Shown one piece after another: positions 13,783 to 62,000 of a stretch of 64,000 nt of DNA (the first letter of the stretch is position 1; each line of letters opens with the position of its first letter). A program made the position numbers and the translations under genes. The notes beneath the pieces are model-generated. The model was given only the letters and a program-made list of their open reading frames with translations, did not search any database and was not told the origin of the DNA. Origin of the DNA: Acanthococcus lagerstroemiae. Its lineage: Eukaryota; Arthropoda; Insecta; Hemiptera; Eriococcidae. The stretch is from assembly GCA_031841125.1 (NCBI GenBank), contig CM063114.1:12152001-12216000 (forward strand). The letters run 5' to 3'.

Positions 13783-13925
13783 TTAAACCATTTCTTTCTG
13801 AATCCTTGCTATCAGCCATTTGATTATGATACACGTTTTACAGACTGCTACTAGTAGTGTGCACAGTATCAGGATTAATATGTATCCATTTTTCTCACTT
13901 TTGTCAGAAATCGCCTTATTCTTGT
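13783..13925 (-). CDS. Gene A exon 8: transmembrane segment and stop
   Basis: Acceptor GCGATTGCAG. A charged stalk is followed by the helix YILILILCTLLVAVC, then WLIARIQKE, which is identical to the end of the gene B transmembrane exon (62364-62473). Gene B then has a donor GTAAGG; here the same place reads GTTTAA, giving Val and a TAA stop. The intron side also matches gene B for about 50 bases (13926-13975 against 62474-62525). Confidence 0.78.
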
Positions 13926-16900
13926 CTGCAATCGCAAGATGAATCATTTTAATTCAACCGACTTCGCATGAAAAGTAGCAGGTAAAATAGATATTTGGAA
14001 TTGTTTGAAGATGAGGAATGATAAACTAATGGGGCATAACTTGAGACACCCAGGAATAATATCACTCCTGCTAGAAGGAACGGTGGAAGGAAAGAACTGA
14101 GTACATCGGCAAAGATTACAGTATGTTCAACAGATAACCGAGAAGGCCAAATGTAAGAGTTATTTGGAAATGAAAGAACTTGCACAAGATAGGGAGAAAT
14201 GGGAAGCTGCATCAAACCGGTCGTTAGACTGATAACCTTCTTATCATCATCATCATCATATCATACTAAAGATGTTCTGGTTTTCTTTCGAATTTGTTTA
14301 GAAAGATCTATGCATGGTCATTATTATGTGGAATGTACGGAGCAAAATATGGATTTTTGTTGGTGTTTTCTTTTGACTAATGCTTTGGAAAAAAGGTTTT
14401 CAAACAGCCTTGAGCTTTTTACTTTACTTACTTTGGGCACTCTCATACCCAATTACCTTAGTCTTTTTCGTTATCAGTAGGATCACGATTAGGCTTCTCT
14501 ACACTCTTTATCTCTCGAAGAAATTGGAGGGTGATGGTATCAAACAAACTTAAACCAACTCACTTTAGCAAACTTACTTAAGCCAACGGTCATCTAGTCA
14601 TTTTATAACCCCCCTCAAAAAAAAAAATTGACGTTGGTTTTTTTCTTTGTAGTACTTCCTTTATAACGAGGGGGGGGGGAGAATGAAAGCACAATATCAC
14701 AAACGATAGTAGCGATACTCGTACAGTTTTACAATTTTTATTTAGGGGGGATAATTTTGAAACCGGGGGGGATTAGCCAACCCCAACCCCCTCTATTTCC
14801 GCCACTGTGCAAAACAGCTGTACAACTCATAGGCAACGCCAGAGAGACACATGGCGGATCTGATTATACTCTTCGTTTCTAATATATTATTTATTTTTGT
14901 TTCTCCTTTTCAGGAAATTTATTAAATTAAAATGGAACCATGTCTAGAATGATCTACTTTAGTGTAGGTAGAAGTCCCATGCAATTTCCAATTTCCAGCC
15001 GTAATATGGACGCTATTCAGCAAGAGGGAACCAACTAACATGTAACAGTTGTACATATTATGTGAGTACTGAGTATATATTGTAGCCGGTAACTCGCCGT
15101 TTACTCTCGCTGCAAATGAGAACCCCTGTAAAGACGGAGAAGCCCTTACAGTCCATTTTCTATACACGCAAAAAAGTAACAAACTGACAAGCGAGAGATT
15201 GAACGATTTTATGAATAGGCTGGGTCGCGTAAGGTGGATGTTACAAAAGTGTACATCCAGTTTGGTAATATAAAGGAGAAGTGGCATGAGAGGGCTGCTT
15301 TCTCCTAAGGGTCGTCGCAGCCTACAGCACGAGTTTATGCGACTATCACAATTGTTAAATGGTGTCCAGTGATTGGAGTTGGTCGGGTAGCTGCCGGATG
15401 ATGGAGCTATCATGCAATTCATGTAGGGAGGACGCCGTGCGAGACAGTCGGTGCTTCTGGTCAGGAGAGCCGGGCCAGGTGTACCGGGGGTCAGATTGGT
15501 CGGACCAGTGAGTGGGGCCTTGCAAACCCTGTCACGATTGGAGGCGGCCTGACTCTGTCATTTAGTGACACTGCAGGGAGAGAGTAGTGCTCTCATTGGA
15601 CCTGTAGCCAGAGTTGGGGACTCAGTGCTACCAAAGTAAGAGAACTCAGCTAGAAAATATTGGAATGGTCAGAGTCCTGGCAATCATCTGTGGTGTGGTA
15701 GTCTTCATTGCGTATGCTCGCACCAAGGGATTGGCCAGGGTCATCGGTAATGCTGGCGTGCATTATAGCTGAGAAGTGATAATTAGATGTTGGCGTGTGG
15801 TCCGCTAGGTAGATCAAGTTACGTACAAGTCTAGCAGGGTTCCTAGGGTACTCAAACGTGATTATTTCCCCTACATGTTACCTGATAAGAGGAGACTGAA
15901 TCCGGCCATTGTTCCTGTGAATGTGAGTCTACGTTGATGTTGAATTCTTACTAACTTTTAAGAGGGGTACACAGGGAGGGGCGATTCTGACTGGGTAATG
16001 GTTGTCCCCACCCCCTTGTTACAAACATTTGTAAACAAAATGAGTTATTAGTATTGTTGGAAAGGGCGTAAAAAGTAGAATTTTTTAAAAATTCGGCCCC
16101 GATTCAAAAATATGTACTCACGTAGAAAAAAGCTTATCAGTAAACGCTGTGTCATATATAGTTTCTACATGGCTCTTGAACTTCGAATCACGTGTTCTCA
16201 AGAAGCGGATTTTGCTAGTTTGTTCCCTCTCTTGCTGAATAGCGTCCATATTCACTTGTGGTCACCACTGAGAACCAAAAGAGGCTATTCCCAAAACTTT
16301 GAGCAGCTGTACCTGAGGTATTCTTGATTTTTTCACACTACCCTTTAAAATTGTCATCAAGGGGCGTGCAGATGGGGAGCCTCTCCCAAAGTCTTGACAA
16401 TTGGCTTCATTTGGAAAATGTGAAATTTCGTGACACATTTTTGCTGGTTTCTTGGACTTAAGACAGTAAATATCATATTGTTTTGATCTTCTTTTGTGGT
16501 TCTCTTTCACTATTCTAATCCATTTTTCTGACAAATTTTTGGTTTTTGTATAAATCAGTTTTTTTGCACCTCCTGAAGTGTGAAAAATGGACTAATCCCT
16601 TTTGGTTCTCATCTCTTCAAACTCTTCGTTTTACGGCTGTTGCATTTTATCAATCAATGTACTTCAATTATCAGTCATTGGTATTTTTGTACTTTAGCAG
16701 GAGATACAAAAATCGTCGCAAGCTTAACTGTAGCTATTTTGGTGCTACCCCGTCTTCGGCTTCAAAATTATTGTAATTTTGTTCGGGATTTGCGGATAAT
16801 TCGAAAAATGATGCTTAATTCCAATATGCCCCTCTTTGATGATCTAGCCGAGCCGGCTACAGCGTGCTATCATTTAAGAACAATATTTACTGAGTATTAT

Positions 16901-19900
16901 AACTAATAATGATAATTACGCAAAACAGGAAGGTAGAACGAAGATTCTGACTTCAATTTCACACGCGGATCAGTGACTTTGCATGTATAGTTTCCTTGGT
17001 CATATTTGGTTATATTCGGAATCGTGGTGGTTTTATAATTGACGATAGTATTTCCGATTTTGTCTTGTTCAAGATGCAGACTGCTTTCCACTGCTTTCTA
17101 CGGCATAGAGAAATAGAATATTTTAAAACAAACAAGTCCCCAAAATTACATAGATAACAGAACAATAATAATAAATAAAAAATAAATTAAAAAAAAATTA
17201 TTTTAAGAAACAGAAAACACACAGCTAGAGCCAGGAGTCAGTCGCGCAAAGCAAAATGGATAGGGAAACGTCGAAAGAGGTGGTTACACTGGACAGGGTA
17301 TGCTGAGCGGTAAACACATTCTCGCCATAGAAGGCATCGGGCTCAGATGGAATCCATCCAGTCTGCCTCCAGACAGGACTAGAGATCATCTAGGACCGTT
17401 CGTCAGGGTCCTCAGGGCATCAGTAGTCCTACGGCACATTCCAAAACCGTGGGGGTGTATGAGAGTGGTGGTTTTCCGTAAACAAGGCCGAGACCCTTGT
17501 CAGGCCTAATACTATAGGCCGGTAAGTCTCTCATCATATTCATGCTAAGAATCTTGGAAAGGCTGGTAACACAGGTACCTAAGAGAGATTACCTTGAAAA
17601 GGGGCCTACTGCATAAGAGCCAGTATGCACTGCTGCCTTCCTCAAGATAAATCTTGAGGTCTCAAGACTTTCAAGAAAATTTCAAGAATTCTCAAGAATT
17701 TACATAAAACTGAGTGAATATGCATTATTACTTTCTCAAATTTTTCATTTCCAGAATTTGGGAAATGGAAAATTCATCGCCTTACAGAAGTAATAAGTAC
17801 TCAGATTTTACGCAGCAATAGAAATGTAAAATGTATGTGTGACCTGTCAAAAGAAATGAGCCCTTAGTGGCATCGAAATGTTCTAAGAAAAAGGCGTAAG
17901 TAATGAACTTCTCTTCTCTCTTCTTCACAGTATTAGAGAACAAAAGTGAAAAGAAAAGGAAAATTTTGAGGATTCTCGGCAGAATTGAGGGTGGAGGGGG
18001 TAAAACAACAAATGTGGTGAGTCAGTAAACATTTACTTGTTGAGAAACAGAAAAGGCTAAAATTTTTGTTTCAAGATTTTTTGGGAAATTTCAAGATTTT
18101 CTACAAAGAATCTAGGGATTTTTCAATGGGCTACTCGCTTATTACGGCAATTGAGAGAGGGATGACTGACGGTAATTCAGGATGTCTACCAGATCAAAAG
18201 AATTGAAATCCGCAACTTTCCAAGATTTTTTTCTAAAACCAATATGGGTATCATTTTGCAGAGTTTATCATACCCAAGTCAATAATAAAAAATAAAAAAA
18301 ACATATAATGGATCTTTGAAGAATCAATGCCCAATAATACGGCCAAACAATATCTTTCCAAAAGCAAAACGAGAAAGAAATCAATAGGAGGGTAGCAAAT
18401 AGGTTGGAACAAATTTTGGAGTCTAAAAATGATCTTGAAAAATAACTTCCCGATTACGTATAAATCACATATCTTTCAGAACTGGGTCCTTCCAGGCATG
18501 ACTCACGGATGTCGAACGTGGACCCTATCAAGCCTTAATGAAAGAAAATTCCAGTCCGCCCAGAATTTCATTGAAAGAGCTATGTTAGGTTTGAAACTTA
18601 CAGACAGAACTAAAATAAATAAAAAATAGGGAAAGACTTTGGAAAAACAAAAACATAATTCACTTTATAAGAAGAATAAAATGGGACTGGGCAGACATCT
18701 AAGCAGACTGAACAATAGTAGGTGGGCGAAAAAAGTAACTTTCTGGCAGATGTGGGAGGGAGAAGGCTGGGCAAGCAGAAGTAGGGCTCTATAGTTTCAC
18801 CTGGGTATACTAAGCCACCATTTTGGTTCATACTGCGCCCGTCGATGCCGAATTGACTACGCGTTACGCTCCGCATAGTCGGATTCGGCATCCACGGGCG
18901 CAGTATGAACCAAAATGGCGGCTTAGTATACCCAGGTGAAACTATAGAGCCCTAGCAGAAGGCTAGGGGGTCAGACGACTTAAACAAAATGCTGTTGAAA
19001 CACCGCGCTTATTCCACAAAATTGCAGCTGACCGGACCGAATTGGAGAGGTTGAGGGAGGCGTTCACTTGACAACAGGGCAAGTGCGATGACTGATTTTG
19101 TAATAAATCGTAACTGAATAGCTGCGTCGTACTGAATAAACTCTATTATTATTTAGTATGACTATTTGGCTATATTTGTCTACTTCCATCCTGATAACGA
19201 GAAAGAAAAGGTCTATAATGAATTTTCCCTTTTCAGTACACTTTCTTTCGTCCTCTCTTCAAAATTGGAAATATGACACGGTGAAACCTCCAAATGTCAT
19301 GACTCGAGGGCATTTTCAGTTTTTAACTTATAATGGAAGGAAAAAATTAAAGGTGATAGGAAGGCGAAGGCAAGAAATATGCAAGAGGTAATTTTTTTCG
19401 GTGAAAGAATTATAGGATCAAGAGTGAAAGCATGAAAATGTGGATAAAACTTTTTCATTTTCTAAAGAGGTCAGCTAACATGTTCCACTGAGTTCGCCAT
19501 CATTGCAGTATGTAATCAAAAGCATACTCCGTCAGCATATTACAAAATAATCTGTCCAGGATACATACCTTCGATATCCTATCATCGGGGTACTTCCAAT
19601 TGATAAAAACAGCTTCTCCTACCGAAACAGGTACTGAGCAATATAAAACTACATTATTTCCTTCAACCGGATATGGATCGGATGCGTTGATATAAGGTTT
19701 CGATATTTTCATCTCAGCTGCAATATGTTTCAAAAATCAATACATCACAATGTACGATTCGGCATTATATGCACATCAAGGAATTTCATAATGCACAGTA
19801 ACTTACGTATAATATGCACAACACACACACACGCACACACCGGGATTAATAACATAATAGTAATCACAGGCGGTAAATTCTTTGACAGTTTGAACACAAC

Positions 19901-22900
19901 ACAATATCATCACTCCAAAAAATTACTCATATTTGAACTCACGATGTCTCATCAACATAAATGTGAAATTCTCGGGGCTGGTAAAGATTCTATTACTTAT
20001 TGCTTCGCACGTAACAGAAGCGCCAAAGTCTTCAGATTTTGGCGACTTCTTAATAAATCCTCTTTTTGAATCAAAGATGACATCAGTTATCTGTAATGAG
20101 AGATCGTCATACTATAATGTTGTCCAAAAAACAATTTATTGCCGCGAGCTTTAAATTCATCCACGTTCCAGTGCCGTTAACAAACAATTCCACGTATGCA
20201 AAATGCCTTTATCCAATACGTGCTCTGAAAGTACCCTATTATGGACGAATTTATAATACTAAAAATAGAGATTTATTGACATTCTAAGACTGTGCAAAAC
20301 CAGGTTAACTTTATTGCTGTAGGACAATAAAACTGATAATTTTATTGCTCTTGTGCAATAAAACTGATACTTTTATCGCTCTTGTGCAATCAAGTGTACT
20401 AAAAAGCAGTTGCAATGTAAGATTACATCGATCAAAGAATTCACACTCGGGCATAATTAAATTTCAATACGAAATACCTACGTAAAACTTATCAAAAATA
20501 TGACCAATGCTTTCATCGTTTTCGTTTTTGTTTACCTTGTCACCAATGTCACGGTTTTAATTTAAGGTTTAGTTTGATATTCTCGGTATTAAAAATATAT
20601 GAGCTACCTAATTATAACATTGGGATGTTAACCTGAGTTTCCGAAGTTGGTACCCCTGCCGGTAATAACGAGGTGATAAGGTATGAAAGGGGGATGGTTT
20701 CACGAAATCATCCCCCTTTCAATTCTCATCAGTTGTTCTCGTCATTGTCACCATACCACGATACTAGTGCTACCTATGTGAGGTTAATATCCCAATAGGT
20801 AATAGGTTATATGTTGTTAAACCAACCGAGCAAATAAAAAGTTATGTGTAATTAAGTAACTGACCTATGGACCTTACCTCATGTTTCTCTTCATTTCTTA
20901 GCGTTAGTTTTATGTCCGGAGATGTTGGTCTACAGGGTATCACAACGTCACCATCTTCGTTCACGTGAAGAAATGCTGGCTGAAATTTACCAATAGCAAG
21001 TAAATGATTTGGATCTGAAAAAAATGACATATCTACGACATGAAATTACTCGAACCATTTTCGTATGCATATTATGAAAATGTATCGGGAACTGGCGTTT
21101 GGCTTTTTACATTAATATTTAAAAAGGAAAAATAATTGATTTCAAATCATGCTCTGGAAGTTTTGGTCGATTTCAGAGCTGAAGTATTTTCTGAAATATT
21201 AAAGGGGTAATTTCTGGTTACATTTTTTTCATATAATAGCCGGAGTGACATAACGTTGGAGATATAGTTACTCTACATCTCTCATTCACCATCCTACATA
21301 CATCTTTGTTACTTTATTCTGTCTGTAACTGGTTGAACATTTCGTTACCGTTAATTTTATATTGCAACAATGCTACTAGCTACATCCTTGTAGCCATTAA
21401 TCATATATCACTCCCCCCTGTGATCAAGCCGCTCTATAATAAGCAGTATTTATGGACAGCTTGCTACCTTATTCTGCTATAGGTTCATAACGTTAGTGTT
21501 ATCTTATATGGATGTGATGAAACTTGGATCATAGAAACACCAGAGAAGAAAAGGATCGAAGCTTTTGAAATGTGGTGCTATAAGCGGATACTTTTAGCAT
21601 CAAATGGATAGATAAAGTAAAAATTGATGAAGTGCTTAACAGAGTAGGAGGTAAGGAGGATACTTGGAATTGTGTCTGAAGAGAAGGAGAGATAAACTAA
21701 TAGGGCATAACTTTAGTCACCCGGGAATAATATCACTTCTGTTAGAAAGAAGAGTGGAAGGAAAGAATTGAGTAGGTCGGCAAAGATTCCAATAAATTCA
21801 ACAGATGATCAAGAATGTCCAGTATAAGTGTTGTTACGAAATGAAAAAATTCGCACAAGGTAGGGAGACATGGAGAGCTACATCAAACAGGTACCTACTA
21901 AGACTGATAACCTTATCGTCATAGCGGTAATGACAAATATTTATCCATCGCTTGTAAATTACCTGTACAAAAAACTCTGTTGTAGTATTGATGGGAGCTG
22001 CAGTGATGAGAGACGTGAGAGCCTCTTAATGTAAACAAGCATTGCGGTATTGTCAAACCATTTTCCTTCAAATTTATTAGATTTTGACTCCATAATTTTG
22101 CAATGCACAAAACATGCGAAAAAATCTTATCTGGCCTACTGCACACATCACATAGTGCGGTACAGCTATTGGCTATTGGACTGATCAAGGTGCTTCAAAT
22201 GTGGCGTCACTGTTCAGCTAATTATAATTATTTTCTGTTGGGGTACTAGCTGAGTTAGGCAAGGCTTACTTCCTTCACAGAATCGACGAACTCTACTTCA
22301 GAATCAGCGATTTCTTTAGCAAAAGAATTTGTAACATCGGAATCATGACCTGGAAAGAACTATGGAGAACATGAATGTCCTGTTTTCATATTATGTATTT
22401 TTCAATGTCGCCATATCGTTATTCATCCTTTTTTTTTACCATTTAGCATACCCACGGTTATACAGCTCCATCCATGCTCATCAGTAAGCAAGATAGTGAC
22501 AACCATTTGTACGAATTTTGAAGTAACAAAATACTCATCGACACTTCAACAAACATTGAAAGTGTCTTCGGCAATAGACTTCAAAGTAATCCCCATGAGA
22601 TTTTTTTCTGGACATGGTGAAACGGATACGCATGATATGTAAATTAATTTTACTTTCCTAAATATCAATTCCATTTTTGGCGCTCGTATAAGGCATATAC
22701 AGGCGAAAACTGATTGATAAGAGCCGCCTGAAAGAATCACTACTAATGGATGGCAATTTTTATCGATATTAGAGCACCTCTGAAAACATCCAGTTATGGA
22801 CACATACCAAATATGTTTAGTGTTTCCATGCCTGATGATTTGAAATCCACTCCGAGGAATGTTCCAAATTGGGTGTCAGAAAGACTATAAATATGGCATA

Positions 22901-25900
22901 TATTCATACTTAGGGTGTTTTTAGGCGTCCTGTCAATATTAGATACCATTAACATACTAACCCTGGCCATTTTGACATGAGCTAAGGTGATATGAGATTC
23001 TCCTATAAACAAACATAGCGGTGTTTCCAGGCCATTCACACAAGTTCCTAGGAGATCTCCCTAATTTTTCAATGCTCAGAACATGAAGAGAAGATGATCA
23101 TACTGGGCGGTTGGGCCCATCATGGTGTTCGCAAATGCGGTGCCGTTCTTCAGCTACTAACATATTTAAATCTTACCAGTCACATAAATGTAAATGCTGC
23201 TGTATGGAGCAGATGGTCCTGTGAGGTTTTTCGACTGGCAACTGTAATACCCGGTGTCCATATAATACGCTGAGTGCACGGTGAGTTCGGAGATGAACCT
23301 TCCATCAGTAGTGTTTTCATCAACAACGGTTTTATTGGATAAATCGTCCTAAAATACAACAATTATTTTAGTTAATGTACGCTACCCATAAATTAGTTCA
23401 AAACCAGGTACTGCTTCTATAGTGACAACGGAAGTCGCACATCCTGTAATGTTCCAACAAGAATTCTTTTTCGGCTGGTAGTTTCAAATTTATTCCAAGG
23501 AACATAATATTTCAGCTTCTGCATCAGCTCTCCGTGAGATAAACAGCAGCTATATGACTATACTATAGAAATTGCATCGCATTGTGAAAATGCGAAGTTC
23601 CCCGCAGCGCGTGGAAAATTGACGATTACCTAATATCATTTCTGTCTCAGAATTCAAAATTTAAAAAAATTGACAGTTGATTCCTGTTATACCTGGATAA
23701 TGTAACGTAGTAAAAGAAATGTAAATATCATGACTGATAGGGATATCTAATTTTCATAAATCATCTTACTTTATAAACCGGAAAAGTCCATTTAACTGGG
23801 TTGTCGTCTTCGCAGGTTAATGTAAAGGTGGCACCAGATGTGTAAACTGATTCTGAGCTAATTGCAGTGATTTTCATACCTGTGAATGTGTGCATAATCG
23901 ATCGAATCGCATTAATACAAACAGATGTGATTCATAAACTATCAATAGATATGGGTTTCCGCTCCATGGCAGCTCTTCTCCGGGTAAATTAAAACGCATT
24001 GTCAATGTTTTGCAATAATTACGGCCGACAATTGATGTCTCATGATTCATTCCGACGAAACAACAGAACTATGCACATATACTTATTACACACATAAGAA
24101 ACCAGCTGATTGATATATAGGCGATGAACCACATGCCAAATCACATCACGGATTACAAGAAATTTGATAGGATTTTTAAAACATATAGATAATCATCATG
24201 TTGGACAATATTATGATCAGCATCGTTCACCAAGCCTCCATCCCAATTAATATATAATCCAGATTAGTCCCTAAAAGTTGATCACCTCTTCCCATTATTG
24301 ATTTTCTTCACGCAGGAGGTAGTGTACAATATTCGTACCTGTATATCTATTCCAGTTGACAGAAAAAAGTAATGTCGGATGTAGGAAACGAAGGTCATCA
24401 CAAGAAAACGGTACATATTTGTTTCATAACGCGCAAGCGGAAATCATTTCAATTAATCGAGTAAAAATATCATATCAGAAGCTGTAAATGATGAAGTTTG
24501 AAAAGGTAGAGGTAGCTAGGTACCTGATAGACAACATGTGTACGAAATAGGCGACACAAATTTGATAACAAATTTCATTTTCACAGATGATAAGATCGTG
24601 AAAATATAACTAACAGTAATTCCGGAAAAACCGATGATGTGTCAAACGGAACGGTTTTAATTCTCTTATCCGAGTTCCGAGACGAGCGCGTTATTCATCA
24701 CTCGGCCAACCAGACCCTTGCAATGCAATAGTGAAACTTCGAACTTTCAGAGCACTTTTAAAACCGGTAGAGTGCGTTCTGAAACCGTGAGTGGACGACA
24801 CTCAAGTGATCCGATATGCGTTCTGAAAGTATACTTGGGTGATCATTGGAGATCATGGACTTAAAAATATCTCCCAAGGCGTTCTGAAAGTGGTGAAGGA
24901 GTTCTGTCACACATGAGGTCATTCCGTCGCCCATGCTAATACGCTCGTTTTGGACGAGAGCTATGCAGAACGCCCTCCTATGTGATATCAACAACTTTTA
25001 TTTCTGATTTATCTGATTGACAACCAACATTGTTCCTCTTACTTATAATTTTCGTTTGACTGGCAAATCTGCAACCTAACTTTCATGAAAGAGAGGAAGT
25101 ACAAGGACAGTCTGGCAGTCTTCAAAACCCTAAGAAGGCATATCCGGGTCATCTTCCAGAAACTGAGAATATTTTGTTACCAGACAGAACAATTACCATA
25201 TTTTGAATAGAAAAAGCATAGGAGGTGTCCATCGCTGTGGATGTTACCATCATGTCTTAATATCCGTCATTTAAAAAAAATGTCTGTCAAGTATACCTGC
25301 CCCCCCCCCCAAAAAAAAGGGTAGCCTATTATTATTTAGAAAGATTGGAAGTAGGTACATGTCAATTAGTTCAACTTCCTTTCAGTGACTTCACATTTCT
25401 AGGAAGGATGGTGTAAAGTTCTCTTAGGTACCAGAGCGTTTTTAGCCCATTGTCGTGGTCAATTTTCTAACTGGTGCAATGATATGTTCCTTACAGGTAC
25501 ATTTTCCAGCACAACAAATAATAATACTGGTACAGTTTTTATCCCTGAATAGGATCTACGTGCCCAATCTTGGACATTCAGGCATAATTTTCAAATATTT
25601 CCCAGAAAAGGAAATTCTAAAAACTGATGTTTTGTCCACAGTCATAGATATCAGTGTTTTCACCATGGACAAGATGTCTAACATTGTGGACAAAAGTCAC
25701 CACCTCCCTAAATTTTGATGCTCCTGTTCTGCAAACTTGTTGAATATTCCCTATCACATATTAATTGAGTAATATGAAAGAAGAAAAAAAAAAAAGAAAT
25801 GCCTCCTTAATATTCTCAGTTTCTGAAGAATGATTCATGAATGTACATCTGTAAGGGTCCGATAGGTTCCTGTAAATTGATGTAAAATGGAACTCACCTT

Positions 25901-25976
25901 TTTTGCTGGGAGCTGTGAATGTACTGCCAGCCACGAGTAGCAAAGCGCCAACAATTTTACTGATTTTCAAACTCAT
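13783..25976 (-). CDS. Gene A: kinase-less PVR/VEGFR-like receptor (signal peptide, 3 Ig, TM)
   Basis: Exons in transcript order: 25898-25976, 23770-23879, 23177-23348, 20878-21014, 19943-20090, 19569-19717, 16920-17097, 13783-13925. All seven introns are GT-AG, phases agree, and the 1,116 nt give 371 residues plus stop. Residues 1-22 are a signal peptide. Each Ig domain is split over two exons: D1 (Cys49, Trp57, Cys100 in a DxGxYxC motif), D2 (Cys148, Cys194), D3 (Cys242, Trp256, Cys304 in DxGxYxC). Seven N-glycosylation sequons are visible (N68, N75, N104, N207, N226, N293, N301). A hydrophobic helix spans about 339-361, interrupted by two Lys, followed by ten residues and TAA. The domains match the ligand-binding end of VEGFR/PDGFR/PVR receptors, which normally have five to seven Ig domains and a kinase; neither D4-D7 nor a kinase was found. 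Inference: a cell-surface decoy receptor regulating the ligand of the neighbouring gene B. The open frame argues against a pseudogene; expression is unknown. Confidence 0.82.
13990..14265 (+). mobile_element. LINE 3' end fragment in gene A intron 7
   Basis: Homologous to 21640-21915 and, in reverse, to 63350-63605. Its translation carries the pattern LAQDREKW near the C-terminus of many non-LTR ORF2 proteins and ends in a short TCA repeat tail. Broken by frameshifts. Confidence 0.65.
15060..15870. other. GC-richer block of unknown nature in gene A intron 7
   Basis: Noticeably richer in G and C than its surroundings. A 166-codon minus-strand ORF (14922-15422) has no motif I recognise. The plus strand read in pieces gives segments such as LPDDGAIMQF, reminiscent of an old retroelement Gag-like protein, but with many stops. 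Not assigned. Confidence 0.3.
16028..16197 (+). repeat. Dispersed repeat, inverted copy at 28945-29110
   Basis: The reverse complement matches 28945-29110, e.g. CAAGAGCCATGTAGAAA and AAAATTCTACTTTTTACG. Confidence 0.7.
16920..17097 (-). CDS. Gene A exon 7: second half of Ig domain 3
   Basis: Acceptor TATGCCGTAG. It holds the F-strand motif YDQGNYTC. The donor is placed at GTAATT (16919), giving phase 1, which fits the transmembrane exon; the donor is weaker than the others in this gene. Without splicing here, the frame stops after six more codons at 16903, which would give a soluble three-Ig protein. Confidence 0.78.
17290..17615 (+). mobile_element. Non-LTR reverse transcriptase fragment in gene A intron 6
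   Basis: The plus-strand translation carries IPKPWG, VVVFRKQGRDP, then YRPVSL and LRILERLVTQV, the conserved RT block before and after the RPISL motif of Jockey/R1-type LINEs. A stop lies between the blocks. Confidence 0.7.
18460..19130 (+). mobile_element. RTE/Jockey-like LINE ORF2 C-terminal fragment, split by a hairpin
   Basis: Translation: LPGMTHGCRTWTLSS, then IKWDWAGHLSRLNN, then after the hairpin RTELERLREAF. This order is typical of the end of LINE ORF2. Frameshifts are present. A palindromic insertion (18782-18953) interrupts it. Confidence 0.7.
18782..18953. mobile_element. Hairpin element H1 with 8-bp target duplication
   Basis: A near-perfect palindrome of about 172 bp: the left arm starts TAGGGCTCTATAGTTTCACC and the right arm ends with its reverse complement. 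AGCAGAAG flanks both sides (18774-18781 and 18954-18961). The central sequence GTCGATGCCGAATTGAC... CATAGTCGGATTCGGCATC is shared with H2 at 31568-31730. Confidence 0.85.
19569..19717 (-). CDS. Gene A exon 6: first half of Ig domain 3
   Basis: Acceptor CATATTGCAG, donor GTATGT. Residues 216-265 include VEGNNVVLYC and INWKYP, the B-strand cysteine and core tryptophan of an I-set-like domain. Ends in phase 0. Confidence 0.85.
19943..20090 (-). CDS. Gene A exon 5: second half of Ig domain 2
   Basis: Acceptor CTCATTACAG, donor GTGAGT. It encodes FDSKRGF followed by a cysteine in GASVTCEA, the arrangement usual for domain 2 of this receptor family, where the F-strand tyrosine is often replaced. 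One sequon (N207). Confidence 0.84.
20619..20796. repeat. Palindromic element H5 in gene A intron 4
   Basis: Outer ends ATTGGGATGTTAACCT and AGGTTAATATCCCAAT are inverted copies; the inner stem is GAAAGGGGGATG / CATCCCCCTTTC around a short loop. About 178 bp, no coding capacity. Confidence 0.75.
20878..21014 (-). CDS. Gene A exon 4: first half of Ig domain 2
   Basis: Acceptor TTTTTTTCAG, donor GTAAGG. Residues 121-166, with GDVVIPCRPTSPDIKLTL typical of VEGFR/PVR Ig domain 2. The domain continues in frame into exon 5. Confidence 0.85.
21505..21915 (+). mobile_element. LINE ORF2 C-terminal fragment in gene A intron 3
   Basis: Reads YGCDETWIIET, then [14 protein letters not shown], then frameshifted pieces and a 3' end shared with 13990-14265. 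AFEMWCYRR is a hallmark of LINE ORF2 after the RT domain. Confidence 0.75.
23177..23348 (-). CDS. Gene A exon 3: second half of Ig domain 1
   Basis: Acceptor TATTTTAG, donor GTAAGA. The correct frame reads DDLSNKTVVDEN at the start and carries the DTGYYSC motif of an Ig F-strand. Three N-glycosylation sequons (N68, N75, N104) lie here. The longest ORF in this place is in a different frame and is not the coding one. Confidence 0.82.
23770..23879 (-). CDS. Gene A exon 2: first half of Ig domain 1
   Basis: The acceptor CACATTCACAG precedes it and the donor GTAAGA follows. It encodes residues 27-63, with the B-strand cysteine in LTCEDD and the core tryptophan in VKW. Its length is 110 nt, too short for a simple ORF scan to pick up. 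Confidence 0.82.
25722..25860. repeat. Block in gene A intron 1, shared with 63815-63950
   Basis: Both contain AAACTTGTTGAATATTC and CCTTAATATTCTCAGTTTCTG in the same order and orientation. Here it lies 40-180 bases inside the intron next to the signal-peptide exon. Confidence 0.7.
25898..25976 (-). CDS. Gene A exon 1: start codon and signal peptide
   Basis: ATG at 25976-25974, then a basic start, a hydrophobic core (VGALLLVAGS) and a likely cleavage site near TFTA. The donor GTGAGT follows at 25897. The exon ends in phase 1 with 26 codons plus one base. Confidence 0.8.
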
Positions 25977-27063
25977 CTTCGCTGTATTGTGTTATTGGAA
26001 GCTAATACAGAAAAAAGAGAACGACAGCAACAACATAAGAAGGCAAGAAATAGGAAAACGAAAACGAGTAAAATCTGTTTGGCGGAACTTATACCAACAC
26101 ATTTGCAAGGAACATTTCAACGCTATTAAAATGAATCATTCATTTCCAGAAACTGCCAAGAGCCACTTTCTCAAAATAAATTTTTTTAAAATCGATTCAC
26201 AAGTAGTCAAACGCGCAAAATTCAATAGTGCGTCTGTTTTGAGTCAAACGCAATAAGCTGTACATGTTTTAAATACACGCTATCAAACACTAGGGTTTGC
26301 GTCAGTGGTTTTTTGTGACAAAAACCAGCTAGGAGAAACCCAAGGGAGAAACCGCTACAAGCATGGCGGGTGATTCAAGAATCCATGAATAACACTACAC
26401 AACAAACATAAAAAAATGCTTTCGCTTATTTGCGAAAGCATCACCGACTTTTCGAAAAGCACTCGGAACTCGCTTCGCTCGTTCCTCGCAGTAGTTCGGG
26501 TTGTTCGGTCGAAATGTTTAAGGCCATTCATGTTTTTAACAAAAACCTAACTCTCGACAAGGAATAGTATTATAAAAATAGAAAACTACCCGGCTATCAA
26601 AATTAGAGTTCGTATAAATTTGAAATCGACACATTCAAGGCGGAAATGTGTAGACCGAAACATTTGTATAATACAACACAACTACGCGGCTATCAAAAAA
26701 TTTAGATTTTGTGTATCAATTAAATCCCAAAAAAATATCGAGTACTTCAGTCGTTTCGCGCTTCTTATGCTGAACTTAAATTGAGGAAACTCGTTAACAA
26801 CTCAACCGATTGTCATCAAACTTTCACCTGTAAAACTTCGAGTACTTCTCTATAATCTACCAAAATTTGGAATCAAATGATATTCAATAGTTCCTGATAT
26901 TTTTGTGCCACAAATTTTGTCCTCGAGGAAAACTCACGAACGGCTCGACCGATTGCCTTCAAACTCACTACTGCACAATTTCAAGTACTGCCTCATAATA
27001 TATCAAGATTTGGAATCAATTGATCCAATAGTTTTTCAGATTTTCGTGCCACAAAATTAGTGT
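25977..27063. other. Intergenic DNA upstream of gene A
   Basis: Contains the expected promoter side of gene A. TATTTAAAA on the minus strand near 26262-26270 is TATA-like but about 290 bases from the ATG, so unproven. ACTAC(C/G)CGGCTATCAAAA occurs twice near 26585 and 26680. No other gene seen. Confidence 0.35.
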
Positions 27064-40200: not shown

Positions 40201-43200
40201 AAAAAGAAGAACTTTCTTCACTGAATAATATCGCTAGAAAATTTTCAACTGAAAATTATTCAAAGCGGTTGTCCAAATACCGCCGCATCAAACGTTATTT
40301 GTCACTGTAACGACCAAATACAACAGTGATTAGTGTTGAAATAGACTAATTACGCACCTGCATACTGGAGCATTGGTTTCAGTTCGACATCCTCCTCCAA
40401 TTCCGGAGATTCTCTCGACGGTACATTAACATACCGTGGTTCTTCGCCGGCCGAGTACACAGGAGGATTGAGTAACGCGAGGTAGTCAACGGAATTGTTC
40501 ATGTCCGCGTTCATTTTAAGGTACATTTCATTTAGATTAGTATAATGCTGACATGAAAAAGAAAACAGAAAATAATAAATCAAAATCAATTCATAACTCC
40601 TATACATCCGCTTTTGATCTATGATGTGAGTAAACAACCAAATGTGGATCACTATTCCATTCATCGAATTTCATTACTCTATATAGACAACTCGCTGTGT
40701 GGCTAATTGGTAATTGCCCGCTTCGCAATCCTTGCGTTTCGGGTTCGAGTCCCACCAACGCCGGAAAACTAGTGATATTCGAATACCCTATCCTAGCGAA
40801 CATATAGCGACTACAGTATCAATCGAAGTGGAAAACATAGCGCGTCCTGTAACTCCAGCAAGGCATTACGATCGCAGGGCGTGTTACAACCAGATCAGAA
40901 AGATCGGTACTGTGCGTGTGCATACCGTGAACAGCTCAGCCAACGTTGTGAAACAGGTGGCTAGTAAGCGTACTACCGCTGCATACTTCGACACACAGAA
41001 GGAAAACTCTAACGCAACAAAACCGTGGGGATAGCAACGGCAAACTACTCTGGCAACGGCCGAATTGCGCCAAATATAGTCTGAATTGCGCCTACTTCGG
41101 ATAATACGATGGACCGAATTGCGCCGCGATTAATCGGAACGCCTTGTAGAAGAATCATTCTTCTCATCACACTGTATGCAGACTTCGAACCGCAATAAGC
41201 ATAGCACGATATGCTGGAGGTCCGGGCACGCACCGAAACCAGAAACACACCTATCGAGCAGGAGCTGGCGGCAACAATCTACGCTCGTGACATGTCCTTC
41301 GTCAGGGCGAATTGAAACATTACAAACGGTACTCGTTCGCCGAACAATAAGTCGCCTCCGTAGTGGAGAAGAGGAAGAAACCTCGATCCACATCATATGT
41401 CAATGCCCAGCAGTAGCCGGGACAAGACGCGAAGCACTGGGACTAGAGTATCCAGCACCCAGTGAAGTCAAAGGAATAGAACTCAGCAAAATTCTCACTT
41501 TGGCTATAAAAGTGAGGCTACTGAGCCCGTTGTTCAAGGCATACCCTTCCAAGAAGGAGATAACCCCATCGAAGTTGCAATAAGCGCTGGCGAATTGGTC
41601 GGCGTTAATCTGGATCCAAGGGACATTGACGACACCGGCAGGCCTGAAGAGAGTGGGGTAAGTGCGTATTTTGTCCGAGGGCCCGGGAAAGCTGGGAGCC
41701 CGGCAGAGAGGAAAAATTCTACGAAAATTTCCCTCGCTAAAGTTTGTTATGAGAAAAGGGGCCTCTTTTATTTCTAGCCTCAGGCCCAGACGAGGCTCTC
41801 TACGGGCCTGTTGGGCTCAAGAGCAAGAATGAAAAGACACCACCGCTGTTTCAGTCATTTATTTTCAACTGACTCTTCGCTCTTGCGTTTTTCTGGTACT
41901 GACACCGCATCAGCCTGTGGCCGATTAAAGGAACGCGGCTGCCGGTCTGCGCATTCTGGCCTGCCTCGGGCTCTTAATTTCTTCCTGAAGGTCAAATCCT
42001 TGCATTTTCTGTCCTCTGTAGGCCTAACACCAGCAGGTTCCTCCTCGCGGACATCAGCCGTACGCGTATTACTTGGAGAAGAGGGAAACATGGCGCAATG
42101 TTTGTATCAGGAACTTTTTATTTTTCATTACCTTCTTCATCCACGAATTTCACTTTTACTTTCTTCCTCCGCGCACGATCTCCTCCACCTTTTTCAAGTT
42201 CTGCTAAGTATAACAGACTGAGCAGGGGAGGAGTCCAGCCCAAAATTTGATAATTCGCCCTCATAGTGGGGAGGCATTTGTTACCTCCCACATGAGTAAA
42301 TTATGCAATTAGTAATTGGCCATGCCTTCGGCGTCCTGGGGTCTTTCCCCCTTGGTGCGTGGAAATTTATCCGTTCCGTGGCTGGCAGCGAGGGTTTCAA
42401 TGCTGAGGAGGACTGGCAACATTCGATTGTATTTCTCTCTGCTACTCAGCGTTCTCTTCATGGTACATTCCTCATCTCTACTCAAGTCTGCTTCTGCCGA
42501 CACTGTGTCAAGGTTCTGTTGTCGCCAGAGAAGCCGTGAGATTCTCGCTGGTACAATTTTTACGATAGCGTGAATGAAATAGAGACACTTGGAATATGCA
42601 CGTATTAGTCGTGTTCTCGTTTGAGTAGGATATGGCGGCATCGAGATTGGTTATTACAGAAGAAAGTACAGGTACAGGTTGTTATAAGAGATAATACTGA
42701 AGTGAACTATCATCCAGTCCGTAGAACTGTACCGACAAATATCACCAACCTTCAAACAATGTGCAGTACACCTGCAGATCATGCTACTTACGATTCTCCA
42801 CTTGAAGAAGACCTCATTTTCAACTGGAACTTCCCAAAATTTGAAATTATTACAGATCACTATTGCAGGACCGGATTAAGAGATTTCGGCTGGGGGGCCA
42901 GCGGTGGTGGGGGCCCTAAACGCGACGGCTTCGTAATATAGTTTTTTTAAAATTCGATTATATTGGGCAAATACAATACGAGCAACTATCGTCACGTCGT
43001 AAATGTAAAAACAGGAGTAGTTTATAGGCACACGCAATTAATAGTTATATTTATCTTCCGTGGAAATGATGGTCTGCATTCGCACTGTTGTGCCGTCTTC
43101 CGACTCTTAAGCGCGCACCAGAGGGCCGTCACTAACGCGCAGCGAATCCCACTGAGCCCATAGAGCTTTCAGCTCGCGTGACTGATTCAAAATTTCCTGC

Positions 43201-52200: not shown

Positions 52201-55200
52201 CAGTCTTCAGCCTTGTGTTGTCTGGCTGGAGTACAGTGGCGGATCTATTGGGGGGAGGGGGACACCCCCTTCGGGTCGAAGAAGAAAAAACATTGCGAAT
52301 TTTGAGTTTTTCTCCTGTTTTTGCGTATCTGCAGCACTCTACAGTCTACAATGTTCATTTTGAAACGATTTAATCACATTATGAAACGTATCTTTAGAAA
52401 TTATTTAAAATGACATCCATCTCAGTTTTTTAGGGGGCGGAGGTGGGAAAAAGTTTCATTTTCAAAACCCCCTCCTTCGAAAATGTCTAGATCTGCCACT
52501 GCTGGAGTGTGTTTGTTCTTCAGATTACTGAAAAACAAAAATTGAATCTGAATGTCGAAGTTGATTAACTTCTCATATGATGAGTTATGCCAATAATAAT
52601 ATCGTAATGAAAGAAAGAGAGCCAGAAATTTCGATTCCACTAGTTTCAGCGCCAATCTTTCAACTTCGAGTACAAGTTCTAAAGTACGAAGTCCAAGTCA
52701 TACCCTTTAAGAGTCAAGGTTAATTTTAGAATTTTACTTCTCTCTTAAAAATATTGCAAATTGTGAATGCAGTGTTCCACCTCGCGTTTTCCCATCATCC
52801 AGAGCTAGTTTGTAAGAAGAACATGATCAGCATTTCGACTCTGATTTCCCATTTGCGTGTATGTATATTTGGCTCCTGTTCACAATACCGGATTACCAGG
52901 CTGCAGGAGTGCAGGCTACAGAGGCTTCAATTAAGAGAACGTAGCTTGAAAAATTATTGAAATATCGATTCAAATCTACGTAAATTGATAAGAAGAATTT
53001 TCGATTTTCAACAGCTCTAGTATTTTATCGGTTTTTGGCCATCACTATAGCTCCTTATATCAATAATAATTGATAATATCGATACTTCTCATTTCAAGAT
53101 CGATATTGGTTTGATATTTTCGAACATCGATATTTTGATATTTTATTGATATATTGCCATCACTACTGTTCTCTAGTGATGGCGATATTTGAAAATTTTT
53201 AAATCAATAGTAATAGATGATATCGATATTTTTTAAATATCAATATTGGTTTGATATTTTTGAATATCGATATTCTGCCATCACTCTATATAGCTTTCTA
53301 GTGAAGGCAATATCTAAATTTTTTATTTGAATATCGTTTGATATTTTGCCATTACTACTGTGACTGGGCGAAACAGGCTCGACTGGACATTCGAACAACT
53401 GCCAAAAATAAGGTATTCTAACGAAGACGGATTTTAGGGTAAATTTGAACTACCAAGTACTCAATTCCCTTTGAAACTAATTCCTGTCAATTAACGAAAA
53501 AAAAGTGGGACGTATTTAATCAGGTCTTTTCGCAGCCCAATCCCCTGGCCGCATCGTATCGGCCACGGGATGTCCTTTTGAGGACCTTCGGTACGATTCA
53601 ATATTTTATACCCAGATACGTTCGACAGAAATTGACTGTTCGCACATACCAGGATACGGAGTCACAGACAAGGAAAATAATTCCCACATGGTGATACCAA
53701 ACGACCAGACGTCGGACTGTATTGAAAACACTCGATCACGTATCGATTCCACAGCCATCCATCTAACAGGCAGCAGTTCCTGCAGATAAAACATGTTCGA
53801 TAAATTTTCTTGCCTTAACAAGTATGAGCAAACAAGGACGCCTCGGGACTGTGCGTCTGACAGCAGTGAACTTACGTGTTTTCTTCTTTGGTAATTTTCG
53901 TTATTGTACATACTTTTGGCTAAACCAAAATCACATATTTTAACGATGTTGTCGTCCGCAAGCAAAACGTTTCTGGCGGCCAAATCACCGTGTAAGACCT
54001 TCAAAAAATACAAAAAAAACAACAACATAAAATCAGTTTTATAATCACTGGTTTATCAACTGATTACTCATTTGTATGATATGAATATCATGTTTATTTA
54101 CCTTACGACTAGCTAAGTAATCCATTCCCCGGGCTATCTGGAACGACCAACATATCAAATCGGAAGTCTTTATTGGCCGGACGATCGTGTTCCGATAATC
54201 ACCGCGATAATTCGAACGCCAGTCCGGCTCCGAGTCTTTACTTATGAGATACCCGTCCGAACCTGGTCAGAGAGAGGTGAAATTAGATCACTCACTGAAT
54301 TTGCATTTGATTACGAAGATTAGGAAGGACGACATCCTCACCAATTGGAGTGTCTTCGACAGTAACACTTTCAGAGTTATTCGTGCTGCTAGTGAACGCG
54401 CCGTTGATCATGGCTGCGTATTTGCTATTTCTGTAAGAAATTGCGCATACGATTTAAATTGACAAACTGTATTCTAATCACCCCCTCAATTAGTGCCACG
54501 TTGGCATGGCAAGGGGGATTAAAGAACTCAAGGCAAATAGGAGAAGGAAAACGCGGACAGATAAAGCCTGATAAAAGCCAGGGGGACATCAGTATTCTTC
54601 TCTGGAGATGCGGCTCCACCGCCACAATTATGATGGCAGCTCACAAAGTAAATAATAATCCCGGAAGCAAAAATCTCCTATTCCGATGTCCGGGAGGAGA
54701 CTGTCTAGTGAGAAACTATCGGGGAGTGAAATGAAGGAGAGTTGAGGCTCACAGACTTTTGTATTACCGGAAGAAGATATAAAAATCAAATAATGGATTG
54801 TAAGATATTCCTAGAAGCGGATTGAGATAGTGACGGCAACTTATTAGAAATGAATCATAAGATACGAATACAATAATTATTAATTTCGTTTTACGCATGA
54901 CCGTTCATATCATTGGGATGTGGAATAAAAATTCAGATGATATGAAGAATTTCTGGGAAGATGGTAGCTAAAGAACTATGTAAATACTAGGATCCTGAGT
55001 TTCATTCATTGTCCATTTTTGTTTCTTGGTATGCGATAATGTATCATCCGCCATTTTTGTTCACTGTCATGGGATAACGCAATGACCAATGAGGTGACAA
55101 CCTACTTAGTACGATTATTCAATAATTTTAATTTCATTTTACGCACGTCAGTCCACATCATTGGGACGTGGAATGAAAATTTTGATGAATTTCTGAGACG

Positions 55201-59000: not shown

Positions 59001-62000
59001 CTTCCTGACCTACTTTTCAAATTCCTGACTTTTTCCAAACTTTCCAAATTTTCCAAACCTGTAGACACCTTGCCGAAGAGGTGAACTGAACAGATGGAAG
59101 TCAATACGGCTACCGATACACCGACCCACTAGACAGGCGGAGGACAGAGAGGCCTGGAGAGAAATGGTGGACGCAGTTAGAGACGGCTCACCAATACTCA
59201 GGCATAAGTGAGTGACTGATAATGATTGTGGTTCTGTTTCCTTCTTCATTATGAATTCTATTTTATAATTTAAATTGTTCGTTCATGTTAGGAATTGGTT
59301 CAGTTATCAGTCAGTCCATATAAGAAAAATGTCATTTACACATTTTTGCCATAATCTAACGTTTTACATATTTACTTTTGTTCATTATATCATTTTCAAA
59401 ATTGTTGATGTATATGCGCACGAGTATTAGTGATAAGAGAGATCATGTTGCTAGTCTTCTTGTCAGTTCAAATTGTATGCTGTTGAACCTACAGTCGTTC
59501 TGGTTGATGATTTCTTTTATGCTGGCACATTTCATCATCTGTGTTGCCGTTGTAGTCATTGGTTCATCTTCAAGTGTTCTTAAACGTGTTGGCAACTTTC
59601 AATGACACCAGTTTGTCACTGTTATTCATTGTTATTGACTCCAGTCCTCCTGTTTAATTGTTGACACCAGTACGTTCGATACAAAAGCTAGTCAACTCAC
59701 GTTTATTGATGTCCCGAGTGCAGGCACCCAACAAATTTACAACATTTAGGTGCCGGCCCAGATGTATCATTATCTTCAGTTCGGTGGCCAGCGCTCGTAT
59801 GTGGAGGGGATCGGCGCCACGTTTCACCATCTTCACAGCCACGGTGGTGGTGGTGTTCTCATCGATTATGCCATCCGCTTCGGCTTTCATGACCACGCCA
59901 AACGCGCCGGATCCCAGTTGTTTTCCTGTAAAACGAAGACACGCTTGTTAATTCGATATCACTCGCCACTTCGGAAACATTAGTTTTTCTTCCACGATCT
60001 TCTATACTTCCACTAACCGAATTTCAATTTTTCTCTTGGGAACTCCCACCGACGATCATACGGCAAGAGGTCGGCTTGATCTTCGACTCCTAGTTCTGGA
60101 TTGAGACTTCCAACGGCGCCTTCCTCGAAATTCAGTAGACCCGTGTCGGCGAGTTCCTTCCGCAATTTCTACGTCAGAGGACAGTCGATTAGCTCGCGGG
60201 AATATCATTCCAAAATAAAATTAAAACATAATTGCTGGAAGTTGATATGGCCAATCGAAATCAACTTCATTTGAAGGGCTGACGACCTCTCCAGGCTTGA
60301 GACCTGAAGGCAGGGGTACCAAAAATAAATGTAGATGAAATACTCATCTCGTCTTGGAGATCTGATTATATTCATATTTTCAAGTTTGGGTTCTACACAG
60401 CACTCAATAAATAAGTGAGGGAGAACAGTGTCTCTGTTTGAAACAATCAGAACACAGAATAACACTCAGCGTGAGGCAGTTTTGTGACATTGAAGGGGCT
60501 GGGGCTAAGCATTATTTCGCCACAAATCGCAAATGAGAGGGGGGGGGATAGCTTCAGCGAGATGTTTCGTCAATCGAACCCTACTGACCAACTTTATCAA
60601 AATTCAGCTTTGCTACATTTTTGCAGAACTTTTTCCTTTCATTTCCAGGAATATTACGCGCTATCGTAAGTAGCAGTTGTTGAGAGGAAAGTGGGAAATT
60701 GAAATTTCTAGATTAAAATCGTGGTTTTTTTTTTTAGTAAGAAACGGAATGAGCGAAAATGTTTGGCGTTTTCAACCAATTAAAATGGAAAAATCCGCAA
60801 TTTTTAATTTTTTTTTGGAGGGGAAAGGGAGAGGTGTCTAGTATCTTCTGGTCTTTTATTTTCACCATTGATACTAGACGACTCTCAATTCAATAGCTTC
60901 GTTCATTAGCAGTGTTACCACCAGGAATCACGTGCAATTTGAATCAACATATTGAAGAACGTTTTAAAAAGCCCAAGGAGTTCCACTGGAACCTCGCTCT
61001 CTAGGGGGTAAAACACCAAAAGAACTGGTTTTTGATTACAAGTCAAAAATTAATGATTACATCAGAAAATATTTCACACAATAACGCCTTCAAACTAAAT
61101 TTTACATAAAAATGGCCCCCTGCAATCTTCTTACATAGGTCACCAGGATATCCTGAAAGGGGGGTTCAAAACCTTTCTGCACACGACTATACATTAACCT
61201 AGGCCTGATGGGTGGAAATGTAGAATTTTTGATATGAACTCTATTTCAGTTGTTGTGTGGCTAAGTGGTAACGTGCCTGCTTGGCAATCCTTGCGCCTTG
61301 GGTTGGGGTACTACCACCCCCGAAAGCTAGTGGACATTCAAATACATGGTGTCTACCAGTTTCAGAAAATGAAAACTCTAGCTATTTTCTCGATTTCTTA
61401 GGCCATTTTTATAGTTCAAGTTTTCTCTGAAAAGTATCTCCCCCCCCCTCCCATTTGTGTATACTTGTTTTGTAGGAAATTTCATGTGCTTTTTTGGCAA
61501 TTAATGTGTAATTATTTTTTAACTTTAAATTGAAAATATTTTAAGAGTTAAAATGTCAAAAATTGATGCTTTTACGAAGAAATTGTAAAAAAGCATGCCA
61601 TTTTCATGCTTTCATGTAACTTTGAGCACAAATCATGCCGTTTTCTGGTTTTATGCGTTTCCATGCCCGGTAGACACGCTGAAATACCCCCACTAATATC
61701 CTAGCGAACACATCGATTACAATATCAATTGAGGTAGAAACCTTTGAAAAAGTTCCGATGAGATCTCTTGGGACTTTTGGAACATTTGTCAAACAGGGTA
61801 TCTACCGGATTTGAAAATGGAAAATACTGAATTTTTCTCGGACCATTTCATACGTCTGATTACAACTAGAAAAAGCGCGTCTATGCAACATTTTAATCAT
61901 TTTACGGATTAATTACTACTAATTTTTTTTAATCGCAGAAGGGATTTTCTCTCTCTTGACCCTTTCTCAAATAATGTATCCAGTCAAGTTTTCCACAACA

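Follow-up and report, generated by a model that had tools for sequence, protein, structure and literature searches.

A putative chimeric gene for a membrane-anchored, kinase-less PVR-type ectodomain beside a PVR-type kinase gene in Acanthococcus lagerstroemiae

In Acanthococcus lagerstroemiae, a 64,000-nucleotide stretch of contig CM063114.1 (C9:12152001-12216000; hereafter the window) carries on its minus strand a gene of eight exons (window 25976-13783), here called gene A, downstream of a PVR-type kinase gene on the same strand, gene B. With somewhat better than even confidence, we read gene A as a chimeric gene made by recombination and coding for a membrane-anchored, kinase-less PDGF/VEGF-receptor-type ectodomain, which would sequester a PVF-type ligand or form dead complexes. 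Its history would have begun when part of gene B was duplicated in tandem and the later immunoglobulin (Ig) exons were lost from the copy. Loss of the splice donor of the transmembrane (TM) exon would have removed the kinase and set a stop 12 residues inside the cell, and a signal exon with its 5' flank would have been captured from a JHBP/takeout-like gene, with the frame intact and amino acids replaced at roughly the neutral rate or above it. Expressed from the JHBP-derived 5' sequence and shown on the cell surface, the product would bind a PVF-type ligand via its second and third Ig domains (D2-D3) and, giving no signal alone, would sequester it or form dead complexes with kinase-bearing PVRs; it may also have a ligand preference of its own. 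These proposals were drawn from 144 kb of sequence (the window with 60 kb upstream and 20 kb downstream) and from searches of the 658-Mb genome (438 contigs).

Gene A was assembled from eight in-phase exons giving 371 codons plus TAA, with intron phases 1,0,1,0,1,0,1 and GT-AG borders at 7/7 introns. The predicted product runs from a signal peptide through three Ig domains (D1-D3) and a TM helix to a 12-residue tail and the stop. Exon 1 (25898..25976; all gene coordinates are window positions on the minus strand) holds the start codon and the signal peptide (MSLKISKIVGALLLVAGSTFTAPSKK) and ends in a phase-1 donor. The two halves of D1 are encoded by exons 2 (23770..23879) and 3 (23177..23348), those of D2 by exons 4 (20878..21014) and 5 (19943..20090), and those of D3 by exons 6 (19569..19717) and 7 (16920..17097); amino acid identity to gene B in these six exons was 72%, 91%, 66%, 58%, 76% and 61%, respectively. 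Exon 8 (13783..13925) encodes the stalk, the TM helix, the tail and TAA. Each Ig domain has its cysteine pair (49/100, 148/194 and 242/304), three further cysteines lie within the TM segment, and there are seven N-x-S/T motifs. Hydropathy gave one strong TM segment, with a Kyte-Doolittle mean of 2.84 in the best 19-residue window. Relative to gene B, the stalk has a 7-residue insert, and in the TM segment (window 13783-13925) lysines (CKTC, IIIKW) occupy the positions of V and G in gene B.

Pfam placed Ig_3 (2.3e-16) and the VEGFR-1-like Ig model for D2 (9.1e-11) on gene A, both above cut-off, while the VEGFR N-terminal Ig model (1.9e-6) fell below its own cut-off. Among PDB entries, gene A matched the VEGFR1 ectodomain over residues 34-312, that is, D1-D3 (E = 1.2e-26), and PDGFR-alpha (3.4e-22), a likeness far beyond chance. 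The D1-D3 homology and the Ig cysteine pairs assign the predicted ectodomain to the VEGFR/PDGFR/PVR group. A protein homology search, in a collection that is perhaps poor in insect proteins, yielded 2256 candidates sharing words with gene A, none of which matched at E ≤ 0.001. In the genome, the 27 matches of the gene A protein comprised all eight of its own exons, seven places in gene B, the copy of exon 1 described below, and weak ones, several of them in a distant cluster of PVR genes.

Genes A and B are colinear in exons and introns and alike in intron phases, and their sequences show D1-D3 and the TM exon of gene A to have been copied in tandem from part of gene B. Their introns differed at 470 of 3626 aligned bases (13.0%) and by 68 indels. 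Mismatch was 7.4% in the intron between exons 2 and 3 and 7.7-16.4% in the other five aligned introns; with exon 3 at 91% protein identity, gene conversion of this exon 2-3 block is possible. Homology extends beyond D3, omits ∼13 kb of gene B containing the later Ig exons, and restarts at the TM exon. Because a repeat common to both genes lies at this D3/TM join and further repeats in the introns are also shared, repeat-mediated recombination is a fair guess.

The kinase appears to have been cut off at the TM exon. In gene B, this exon ends in AAAGG|GTAAGG; the equivalent site of gene A (ATGGTTTAAG) no longer fits the donor consensus, and translation there runs straight into TAA. This is the single lost donor, at the end of the gene model, and the splice sites of exons 2-7 are retained. 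Since BLAST homology to gene B ends at the edge of the TM exon, a small insertion or a duplication boundary may lie there. At E ≤ 0.05, peptides of the gene B kinase, later Ig domains and tail had no match in gene A or in the 33.8 kb that follow it; across the 144 kb, kinase and later-Ig queries matched gene B only at the same threshold, and the matches listed in a genome-wide kinase search included none at or after gene A. Neither a split tyrosine kinase nor membrane-proximal Ig domains D4-D7 were found in gene A. As a gene model, it has the make-up of a kinase-less decoy receptor, with predicted ligand-binding domains in a separate coding unit that lacks a signalling domain, and it likely acts as a ligand trap or co-receptor at the membrane.

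The first-pass annotation, made from the window, had anticipated much of this structure. Its eight in-phase GT-AG exons with 371 open codons came out the same when rebuilt exon by exon; the signal peptide, three Ig domains with their cysteine pairs, TM helix and stop were borne out as well; and its description of a kinase-less, membrane-anchored product agrees with the TM helix, the 12-residue tail and stop, and kinase matches confined to gene B. It had also placed gene A in tandem with a full receptor. That holds insofar as gene B, upstream of gene A and in the same orientation, bears kinase exons, but some Ig half-domain exons and the first exon of gene B were not found.

The origin of exon 1 had been missed, since it lay outside the window. 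In a genome search that skips very common words and counts copies as listed places, the 283 bases around exon 1 occurred at two places, gene A itself and C9:10662445-10662726 (85%), 1.5 Mb away. The gene at the latter place is JHBP-like: its next two exons matched JHBP at 8.8e-5 (exon 2, below the curated cut-off) and 1.4e-9 (exon 3), and exons 1-3 joined matched PF06585 at 8.2e-20. Exon 1 was identical at 75/79 positions (94.9%), the 5' flank (25977..26126) at 122/149 and the intron at 295/361, which puts the flanks at 82%; by eye, all four differences within the exon change an amino acid. The shared 5' flank may carry a 5' untranslated region or promoter-proximal DNA, and perhaps a promoter. 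Because exon 1 was seen neither in gene B, as far as this gene was found, nor in the fetched PVR cluster, the JHBP-like gene is its likely source. In the 144 kb around gene A there was no credible match to exons 2 and 3 of that gene. Both genes have a phase-1 donor on exon 1, and gene A has the composition of a chimera, with exon 1 apparently taken from the JHBP-like gene and exons 2-8 from gene B, joined at compatible splice phases. A dispersed repeat that follows exon 1 of gene A (window 25146-25838) recurs within introns of gene B and next to exon 1 of the JHBP-like gene (C9:10660001-10662500); it may have aided the transfer.

Comparison of exons with introns pointed to a maintained reading frame. 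Of the 68 indels counted over the 3626 bp of aligned intron, 60 are not multiples of 3; scaled to the 894 bp of exons 2-7, this predicts 14.8 frameshifting indels over both lineages, and the net number seen was zero. The A lineage alone would account for ∼7.4 on an equal split, again with net zero seen (Poisson chance ∼6e-4). Length differences between A and B are confined to multiples of 3: exon 4 differs by 3 bases, exon 5 by 12 and exon 6 by 6, and exons 2, 3 and 7 are of equal length; in exon 5, a 1-base and a 2-base gap cancel out in the alignment. Apart from the one donor lost where the gene model ends, the broken frame and lost splice sites by which a pseudogene might be recognised are not apparent in the gene model.

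Amino acids nevertheless seem to have changed quickly. By NG86, D1-D3 of A and B differed by 103.2 nonsynonymous changes at 680.3 sites and 18.8 synonymous changes at 189.7 sites (Ka 0.170, Ks 0.106). The dN/dS analysis of gene A that the first-pass annotation had proposed gave, by pairwise maximum likelihood against gene B, an omega of 1.90 for D1-D3 (2ΔlnL 5.63), and 2.10 (8.72) with the TM exon added. For single domains omega was 2.16 (D1; 2ΔlnL 1.32), 2.52 (D2; 3.50) and 1.56 (D3; 1.38). With the same method, PVR kinase exons gave 0.25 and 0.12. Ectodomain exons of two other paralogs gave 0.75 (2ΔlnL 0.71), and one short exon pair gave 1.00; loose ectodomain constraint is therefore not unique to A and B. 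We take gene A for a coding gene whose amino acids have changed fast, probably by adaptation.

The differences between A and B were most frequent in D2 near positions that contact VEGF in VEGFR1. The residues forming the core of the VEGF-binding surface of VEGFR1 D2 were taken from a paper on metal-induced D2 dimers (PMC5152890). When A, B and VEGFR1 were aligned, with positions gapped in VEGFR1 excluded and gaps in B scored as differences, A and B differed at 15/23 positions in the contact segments (139-147, 197-204 and 221-226) and at 21/66 outside (p = 0.007) in an exploratory test, devised after the A-B alignment had been seen and with the first range shortened by us. With the ranges as printed (first 139-151), the counts were 16/27 and 20/62 (p = 0.02), and for the eight core residues 6/8 against 30/81 (p = 0.057). 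Two other PVR paralogs served to polarise changes in the exons of D1 and D3 and in the first exon of D2; 10 of these changes fell on A and 10 on B. Since both genes have changed, the same ligand is not to be assumed for them. With the differences concentrated around the VEGF contacts of D2 and an omega estimate that exceeds 1, gene A may differ from gene B in ligand or affinity. Of the earlier proposal that gene A is a decoy or co-receptor for the ligand of gene B, the separate, kinase-less, anchored gene with D1-D3 and the frame kept as a unit stands; that the ligand is the same has become doubtful, given the differences in the D2 contact segments and an omega above 1. A more specific version of our reading, which we put forward tentatively, is that capture of a promoter-proximal JHBP/takeout exon gave the ligand-binding half of a PVR a new control. 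The outcome would be a dedicated trap at the cell surface whose ligand face has diverged, a growth-factor decoy receptor assembled from two unrelated genes and shaped by positive selection against its parent receptor.

Several points weigh against an adaptive surface trap. The join of exon 1 to exon 2 is a predicted one, the D2 contact test was framed after the fact, and none of D1, D2 and D3 reached significance alone for omega. The omega-above-1 signal depends on the likelihood test, simpler tests being weaker: the Fisher test of Ka against Ks gave p = 0.077, and the nonsynonymous rate (103/680) was close to the intron rate (470/3626; p = 0.12). The TM helix contains a lysine, and neither AATAAA nor ATTAAA was present in the 1.8 kb 3' of the stop. 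The want of a canonical polyadenylation signal and the near-intron rate, as under relaxed constraint, would suit a partial duplicate that is in decay or not expressed, its open frame being recent or a matter of chance, and so would the disappearance of the kinase, the later Ig exons and a splice donor. Such a duplicate should, however, have gathered ∼7 frameshifts in the A lineage where the net is zero, and it does not sit well with the retained splice sites of exons 2-7 or with an exon 1 much better conserved than its flanks; we regard decay as quite unlikely.

The lysines in or beside the TM helix, absent from gene B, bear on a further possibility. Gene A might act as a co-receptor, or might have a ligand of its own, such as another PVF or some foreign protein, to which selection would have refitted D2; the lysines or the short tail would then recruit a partner chain in place of ligand trapping. 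An omega estimate above 1, D2 differences near the contact segments, and the presence of five PVR-type genes against two PDGF-domain matches all agree with this. Yet the 12-residue tail held no recognised motif by eye, a partner chain was not identified, and the polarised changes were equal on A and B, so that we rate this possibility as rather unlikely. We consider it very improbable that gene A is no gene of its own and merely supplies gene B with alternative or read-through exons. The two share a strand and identical intron phases across a gap of 14 kb (gene B tail exon to gene A exon 1), but gene A has its own signal exon, and since the kinase and tail exons of gene B lie upstream of gene A, a kinase-bearing product cannot take the A exons in order. 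We retain the chimeric, kinase-less ectodomain as the preferred reading.

Known receptors resemble gene A in parts. With the PVR/VEGFR/PDGFR kinases, including insect PVR and gene B, it shares homology in D1-D3, and with gene B also intron phases and the TM exon; unlike them, it lacks later Ig domains, juxtamembrane region and kinase, and its signal exon is JHBP-like. With the JHBP/takeout-like haemolymph carriers (PF06585) it shares exon 1 and the 5' flank, and Pfam found no JHBP domain in it. PVR signalling in flies acts in haemocytes, wound repair and growth, and ligand choice and expression tissue of gene A are therefore directly testable. The best architectural analogue is FGFRL1, a member of the FGF-receptor family with a longer intracellular part; gene A differs from it as a partial copy of a neighbouring gene with a 12-residue tail. 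FGFRL1 likewise has three Ig domains, is membrane-anchored and kinase-less, and was initially seen as a decoy (PMC12026108, PMC3820611). Soluble VEGFR1 (sFlt-1), including mouse sFlt-1(1-3), which is truncated and used in preeclampsia studies, is a kinase-less VEGFR-type ectodomain with the first three domains (PMC4230935). In contrast to gene A, a separate gene with a membrane anchor, sFlt-1 is soluble and comes from splicing or a construct.

Kinase-less products derived from receptor tyrosine kinases of insects, the insulin decoy receptors, have reportedly been described as decoys. Caenorhabditis elegans DAF-2B is likewise a kinase-less receptor-tyrosine-kinase derivative and is described as sequestering ligand (PMC7041946). 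Both are examples of invertebrate receptor products that lack a kinase; they differ from gene A in belonging to the insulin receptor family. We know of no exon from an unrelated gene in either. Searches of open-licence PMC papers for PVR decoys or duplicated PVR genes turned up none on a gene like gene A. VEGF receptor decoys are known as splice forms or constructs, and a separate gene for a membrane-bound PVR trap in an insect would, as far as these searches go, be new; its origin can be traced stepwise from the sequence.

Three more PVR-type kinase genes, which lie outside the window and had likewise been missed by the first-pass annotation, form the cluster at C9:6.82-6.99 Mb, ∼5 Mb from gene A, which brings the PVR-type genes found to five. 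The PDGF/VEGF ligand domain had two matches in the genome (C9:7837123 and C3:56114739), in a search that scores exons and that diverged ligands may escape. The excess of receptors over ligand matches would suit a trap or divided roles. In the middle gene of the cluster, the later Ig exons seem to be repeated as three cassettes in a row (∼6.894-6.909, 6.917-6.925 and 6.928-6.933 Mb), the third without the first exon, followed by one TM exon and kinase; this may be an over-long receptor, or the cassettes may be alternatives or remnants.

For gene B, we found the D1-D3 exons matching gene A, five further Ig exons, the TM exon, three kinase exons and a tail exon. All Ig exons but the last fall outside the window, and not every Ig half-domain exon was found; a seven-Ig layout is suggested by exon order and family. 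Within the window, on the minus strand, lie the second half of the last Ig domain (62987..63154), the TM exon with its donor intact (GTAAGG; 62364..62473), the kinase exons for the N-lobe (59696..59935), the catalytic loop with DFG (53879..53998) and the C-lobe (53648..53779), and the C-terminal tail exon (40353..40553), edges being approximate for all but the TM exon. A scan of 27 kb upstream of gene B D1 revealed no signal exon; a candidate near C9:12250094 was rejected, its frame having no usable start codon or donor. The intron that precedes the tail exon, on the far side of the last kinase exon found, contains two partial copies of Ty3/gypsy-like gag and reverse-transcriptase frames, named by eye (window 43107-47249). 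The intron between the D2 exons of gene B (C9:12231804-12244402) spans 12.6 kb, compared with 787 bases in gene A. Within it, C9:12233323-12233758 resembles the first intron of gene A, a sign of further rearrangement at this locus.

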